Made by a program: the position numbers and the translations under genes. Of a DNA stretch of 64,000 nt, positions 24,784 through 25,428 are shown piece by piece; position 1 is the stretch's first letter; every line of letters begins with the position of its first letter. The DNA is from Bacillota bacterium. GTDB taxonomy: Bacteria > Bacillota > Clostridia > Peptostreptococcales > Anaerovoracaceae. Under the pieces are notes generated by a model. That model did no database searches and was not told where the DNA came from. It worked only from the letters and a program-made list of their open reading frames with translations. Where the stretch lies: positions 62,001 through 126,000 of the forward strand of contig JAFRYI010000010.1 of assembly GCA_017437745.1 (NCBI GenBank). The letters are read 5' to 3'.

Positions 24784-24975
24784 TATATGCTCCTTTCGTA
24801 AAGAGTTATTTCCTATTTTATATAATAACACAGGTGAGGCGGCTTGGGGGACGGAAAATGAGGAATAGGAGACGGTTCTCTGTTCCATTTTCGGCGATCT
24901 TTCGGGATGCTCCTCAGATTTAATGTATACATGTGCATCCCTAAACTATGTCAAAGCAGACGTTGCTTGCACGGA

Positions 24976-25327
24976 TGTGTCCGAATTTCCCTTTAAACAA
25001 GATGTTGGACACATTTAACCCGTTCAACCCGACAAATCGTGTCCGTTTTTCTTTTTTAAATACTTCTTGGACACGTATTTTGCGGTTTTCTATGGCAGAT
25101 CGTGTCCGTTTTTCTTTTTTAAATTCTTCTTGGACACGTATTTTGCGGTTTTCTATGGCAAATCGTGTCCGTTTTTCTTTTTTAAATTCTTCTTGGACAC
25201 GTTTTTTGCGGTTTTCTATGGCAAATTGTGTCCGTTTTTCTTTCTTATTTTTTTCCGGGACACGTATTTAATAGTTTCTCGGGTAAAACCGTGTCCAAAA
25301 ACCAACTATTCAAAATAGTCGGACACA
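24976..25327. repeat. Array of 12 phased, alternating inverted half-sites
   Basis: Six units (C/T)GTGTCC-N24-GGACAC(A/G), each with exactly 24 bases between arms. Half-sites start at 24976, 25007, 25038, 25069, 25101, 25132, 25164, 25195, 25227, 25258, 25290 and 25321, so every step is 31 or 32 bases. The three central units are near-identical 63-base tandem copies. The outer units keep the half-sites and spacing while the interior differs. Confidence 0.9.
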
Positions 25328-25422
25328 TTAAGTACAAACGAGCCTCTTTTGATCGCTCTAAATTAATACTATAGAACCGAATACGCACCGTGTGACGTTT
25401 AGCACTAATGGCATCGCTGTGG

Positions 25423-25428
25423 TATAAT
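25423..25428 (+). promoter_or_regulatory. Extended -10 promoter giving a leaderless methyltransferase transcript
   Basis: TGGTATAAT ends six bases before the ATG at 25435, and no Shine-Dalgarno is present. A weak -35 candidate (TAGCAC) lies 17 bases upstream. Confidence 0.65.

Follow-up and report, generated by a model that had tools for sequence, protein, structure and literature searches.

An array of twelve exact hexamers, GTGTCC and GGACAC in alternation, was found across positions 24977-25326 of the window, i.e., the whole 64,000-nt stretch of DNA that was analysed. The explanation which we consider best, and to which we give about half of our confidence, is that of a dispersed REP/TIR-like repeat acting as a phased lattice of double-stranded, putative protein-binding half-sites. 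The hexamers start at 24977, 25007, 25039, 25069, 25102, 25132, 25165, 25195, 25228, 25258, 25291 and 25321, confirming the twelve alternating inverted half-sites that had been claimed in a sequence-only reading of this DNA. The start-to-start steps given in that reading (31, 31, 31, 32, 31, 32, 31, 32, 31, 32, 31) are exact for the 7-mers used there; based on the hexamers, the steps are alternately 30 and 32-33. The mean distance between successive oppositely oriented half-sites is 31.4-31.5 bp, corresponding to approximately three helical turns, and this spacing is the basis of the idea that a protein may load on one face of the helix. In the window, the base immediately 5' of each half-site is a pyrimidine, and A-rich sequence usually lies further 5'.

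The array is composed of six 36-bp units GTGTCC-N24-GGACAC, with 26-27 bp between them and a period of 62-63 bp. The units are located at 24977..25012 (unit 1), 25039..25074 (unit 2), 25102..25137 (unit 3), 25165..25200 (unit 4), 25228..25263 (unit 5) and 25291..25326 (unit 6), and the five spacers within 25013..25290 measure 26, 27, 27, 27 and 27 bp. Of the 24-base interior reported to be constant in all six units, only the length was found to be constant, while the sequence varies between units. Units 2-4 including their spacers are ~97% alike, in agreement with the earlier description of three 63-base tandem copies, the first of which begins with unit 2. The interior of unit 5 is partly diverged (71-75% like units 2-4), that of unit 1 is 54-58% like units 2-4, and that of unit 6 is unrelated (12-33% like the other window units). 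These values bear out the observation that the outer units vary inside and hold their sites and spacing.

Comparison of orthologous intergenic regions revealed the array to lie on an extra segment of 558 bp (24860..25417) with a GC content of 39% vs 55% for the window. The segment is cleanly missing in the congeners G002 and G003, and ~39 bp are present at this position in G004. The flanks of G002 and G003 are 92-94% identical to the window on the operon side and ~80-83% identical beside the segment, on the methyltransferase side; an obvious target-site duplication was not found at the segment. Because the three congeners are without it, the segment is read as a probable gain, loss in their common ancestor being the alternative. 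At the C12 locus of the window genome (G000), the intergenic region comprises 532 bp vs 153 bp in G002 and G003, and the element there is homologous, over ~220 bp, to an element at a different locus (C4) of G006. Among the array loci compared, only these two are clearly homologous. We infer that the extra segments at 24860..25417 and at C12 are insertions. The sequence GGAATAGGAGACGGTTCTCTGTTCC (24862..24886) resembles, by eye, the repeats GGGGACGGTTCT / AGAACCGTCCCC of congener G009. Directly after the extra segment, TGGTATAAT (25420..25428, + strand) reads as an extended -10-like element, which is retained in G002, G003 and G004; six bases separate it from the start codon of the methyltransferase gene (ATG, 25435). 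Since the segment ends directly upstream of this element, the methyltransferase gene may be transcribed as a leaderless mRNA, from a promoter that may need no -35 element.

In G000 (1.63 Mb, 98% complete), the pattern GTGTCC-N23..25-GGACAC gave 14 matches vs 0 for the reversed control pattern, with a chance expectation of ~0.3 by our own arithmetic. The pattern GGACAC-N22..29-GTGTCC gave 11 matches and 0 controls, one match (C15:110644) being located outside the arrays. The recurrence of the half-sites in this genome, with 19 pattern matches in total, is not due to chance. Four further intergenic loci of G000 carry the 36-bp unit or a 37-bp variant, with mostly unrelated interiors. Arrays of four units each are present at C17 (2479-2705), where the units resemble one another, and at C21 (17378-17602); at C12 and C15, the 37-bp variant unit GTGTCCC-N23-GGGACAC was found, in part unevenly phased. 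Variant arrays also occur in G006 and G003 and a single variant unit in G005, near which a short array GTGACC-N20-GGTCAC with a period of ~52 bp was observed (L025 6150-6310). Most loci share little similarity outside the half-sites that could represent a common transposon body, and inverted repeats of 36-37 bp were not clearly enriched in general. As read from the open reading frames, the genes on either side of an array can be convergent, divergent or tandem, which weakens the earlier suggestion of an operator array. On the partition-like or anchoring role also suggested there, the results speak neither for nor against.

Within the family, arrays were found in G000 and G006, plus one isolated match, among 350 genomes, and within the class in G000 and G617, plus one isolated match, among 391 genomes. 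A scan of named genomes covering 257 billion bases, queried with this very pattern and with some single hits expected by chance, revealed arrays of the 30/33 geometry in Murdochiella, one Lachnospiraceae MAG, Massilia and Duganella. In 38 sampled 20-kb stretches of G617, which appears to be Murdochiella-like judging from sequence identity, arrays were found at ~123, ~359 and ~652 kb of a contig of 1.67 Mb, with a GC skew that is positive from ~250 kb and negative from ~1.13 Mb; three loci are too few for a claim of origin bias, and the sampled stretches were chosen to include them. A phage origin of the pattern was rejected, the two matches in viral contigs having irregular steps and looking like chance, and the literature search on the motif returned nothing relevant. 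P-type-ATPase-like genes (heavy-metal type by appearance, 55% identity) were observed to adjoin arrays in G000 and Murdochiella (L019 544-2310; L077 1401-3437; L082 941-2977), which may be chance. Related proteins of 264-281 aa, for which no Pfam or NCBIfam family was found, likewise adjoin arrays in both (L020 8130-8924; L102 4736-5578); the 264-aa protein beside two arrays was rejected as an array partner, its family being widespread in genomes without arrays.

The scan of genome and relatives suggested in the sequence-only reading, i.e., whether spacing is conserved where the interior is not, gave a largely positive outcome. At C21, the units are exactly 63 bp apart and the half-sites are 92-100% identical, with interiors (25-42%) and spacers (19-42%) being near random. 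Between C12 and G006 C4, the repeat boxes are identical in 49/54 columns (91%) vs 120/201 other columns (60%; P = 5e-6, this and all P values below being nominal, as several patterns, loci and tests were compared). In Murdochiella, up to three genomes have an array at the corresponding position, and the indels between orthologous arrays are mostly of 1 bp. There, the half-sites of one species were fixed and their intactness in the other was scored vs control hexamers; since half-sites define the arrays, a residual ascertainment bias is to be reckoned with, for which this one-species-conditioned test is the safer one. A less strict count agrees, but is biased upward by the union of half-sites. 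At locus A, 9/10 and 9/11 half-sites are intact vs 14-18% of control hexamers, and at locus B, 7/9 to 8/9 and 7/10 vs 20-31%. Locus C yielded 5/6 vs 10% in one direction and 4/14 vs 11% in the other (P = 0.056). At locus D, with an overall identity of ~94%, there was no excess in one direction (8/11 vs 68%, P = 0.5), and 8/8 vs 59% were intact in the other. Loci A, B and one direction of C are above controls with P values from 5e-3 to 2e-7, in comparisons which partly reuse sequences and are hence not independent. The prediction that half-sites change more slowly than the interior in relatives is thus clear at two loci (A and B) and mixed at one (C), and one (D) is too similar to tell. The background identity between the Murdochiella species with in-situ half-site conservation is 70-77%. 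The proposal that the half-sites and their spacing are under selection, and are not a product of slippage only, is supported by C21, by C12 and G006 C4, and by Murdochiella loci A and B. This conservation would reflect selection for binding; selection for mobility could also keep the half-sites. A pyrimidine at -1 and an A-rich tendency upstream are common to the half-sites of G000 and Murdochiella, which makes it more likely that these two have a recognition in common.

Units in inverted orientation flank a Y1 gene, one at either end, in Massilia eburnea and in Duganella, and in M. atriviolacea, arrays surround a Y1 transposase gene; dispersed unit doublets occur in the Massilia/Duganella group. 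The genes framed by units in Massilia and Duganella are of the NF047646/PF01797 type, the M. eburnea protein matching NF047646 with 89 bits (cut-off 80) as well as PF01797 and giving weak C-terminal HTH matches. No Y1/RAYT gene match was found in G000 (by PF01797 and a RAYT/TIRYT alignment), G003, G005 and three Murdochiella-group genomes, and GTGTCC units flanking Y1 genes were not found in the family of G617. The congeners G009 and G010 carry Y1-type transposases flanked by a GGGACGG repeat that is not strictly phased. In G009, five Y1-type transposase genes were observed (L213, L216 and others), most of them flanked by GGGGACGGTTCT / AGAACCGTCCCC; in the 317 kb sampled, these repeats are also dispersed, often 27 or 31 bp apart. 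Given that a coincidental family with the same word and spacing is possible among 85,000 genomes (of order one, by a rough estimate), a shared origin with the Massilia motif can be called no more than plausible.

Tandem slippage or gene conversion alone, leaving decaying functionless copies, explains the near-identical 63-bp copies of units 2-4, and the mutual similarity of the C17 units is in line with it. As the whole story it is contradicted by the exact spacing with unrelated interiors in C21 and in the outer window units and by the half-sites kept in orthologues, so that we regard it as very unlikely. An equally improbable explanation is that each unit is an RNA hairpin (a terminator, processing or protein-binding element), as the sequence-only reading had considered. 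The unit ends are complementary and the arrays intergenic, but the closing pair is broken in 3/4 C21 units, and ~30 one-arm changes vs one complementary double change were counted in Murdochiella (overlapping frames inflate these numbers); hairpins are disfavoured because arm changes are almost never compensated. Furthermore, the 24-nt loops of the class I units (GTGTCC-N24-GGACAC) have no excess of symmetric pairs (P = 0.46 in G000, P = 0.71 in Murdochiella), the constant inter-unit spacing would be left unexplained, and no Rfam match was found at the array loci in the six sources searched. For G000 class I and Murdochiella, these sequence comparisons favour half-sites that are recognised as double-stranded DNA. 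Excess interior symmetry is present in the 37-bp variant (P = 0.013) and the Massilia units (P = 0.011), where hairpins may form. Least probable of all is that unique inserts are archived between constant short repeats in a CRISPR-like manner, or that the repeat encodes a peptide (63 bp equalling 21 codons), to which the unique interiors between constant words at C21 and an open 107-aa frame spanning the window array would point. A search of viral contigs for two segments of C21 gave no exact match (a weak test), 1-bp indels in orthologous arrays break any frame, and the period varies from 62 to 64. CRISPR arrays have identical direct repeats, spacers from mobile DNA and cas genes; the repeats here alternate in orientation.

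The rival that we take most seriously, though we consider it less likely than not, is a REP/TIR-like non-autonomous mobile repeat of a since-lost TIRYT, a Y1 HuH transposase. The half-sites would then be the recognition ends of the transposase, kept because selection acts on mobility, and would serve no function of the host. TIRYT/TIRtron repeats are described as terminal inverted repeats of such transposases, occurring in dimers and clusters, with a motif GGGGWSAS reported for a majority, not all (Di Nocera 2013, PMC3733652), and probably correspond to subclass 2.1 of Quentin 2018 (PMC6006769). This rival is favoured by the same half-sites and 36-bp units at Y1 genes in M. eburnea, Duganella and M. 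atriviolacea, by the dispersed doublets, the extra segment without obvious target duplication, the homologous element at different loci of G000 and G006, and such transposases with other flanking repeats in G009 and G010. GGGGWSAS is close to the GGGACAC of the 37-bp variant, which fits in part, whereas the class I half-site GGACAC does not fit. Against it stand the missing Y1/RAYT match in the 98% complete G000 and the other genomes searched, so that the window genome has no detectable gene for units to flank; the few copies; the half-sites that Murdochiella species keep in situ against a background identity of 70-77%; and class I interiors without symmetry. Strict 30/33 phasing with interior turnover is also not part of the TIRYT descriptions compared (PMC3733652).

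The REP/REPIN/BIME elements of RAYTs are similar in being intergenic, dispersed and made of alternating inverted units, with a possible trans-acting Y1 enzyme. They differ in that no 5' GTAG/GTGG guide was seen by eye at the window units, a stable class I hairpin is missing, copies are few, and a cognate RAYT was not found in G000. Phased operator pairs of cooperative DNA-binding proteins, such as the NrdR boxes approximately three turns apart, share the placement of sites a whole number of helical turns from each other; in contrast, the sites here are asymmetric hexamers that alternate in orientation, form arrays of up to 14 and are not tied to promoters.

In the phased lattice that we prefer, the working unit would be the double-stranded Y-GTGTCC-N24-GGACAC-R, repeated after 26-27 bp, and a sequence-specific DNA-binding protein would bind cooperatively to the half-sites, on one side of the double helix. 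TIRYT-type Y1 transposases that have a C-terminal HTH may share its specificity or be the source of it, since genes of this type are flanked by the same unit in Oxalobacteraceae, and the Firmicutes arrays would be kept by a host protein without a Y1 transposase gene. Against this lattice speak the partly uneven phasing at C12 and C15, the loosely phased GGGACGG repeats of G009, a member of the same genus, and the outcomes at Murdochiella loci C and D. Only tentatively, and leaning to the contrary ourselves, do we suggest that the lattice of GTGTCC half-sites might be an undescribed class of chromosomal site, bound by a cooperative protein, in bacteria as remote from each other as Firmicutes lineages and Oxalobacteraceae; in the latter, a Y1 transposase system would have captured it or been its donor. 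The arrays are carried by named Murdochiella strains. If the preferred reading is right, selection maintains a half-site in fixed phase at a few chromosomal positions in bacteria in which no cognate transposase is detectable, which would imply either a REP/TIR-like repeat taken over by the host or an unrecognised DNA-organising protein with six-base specificity.
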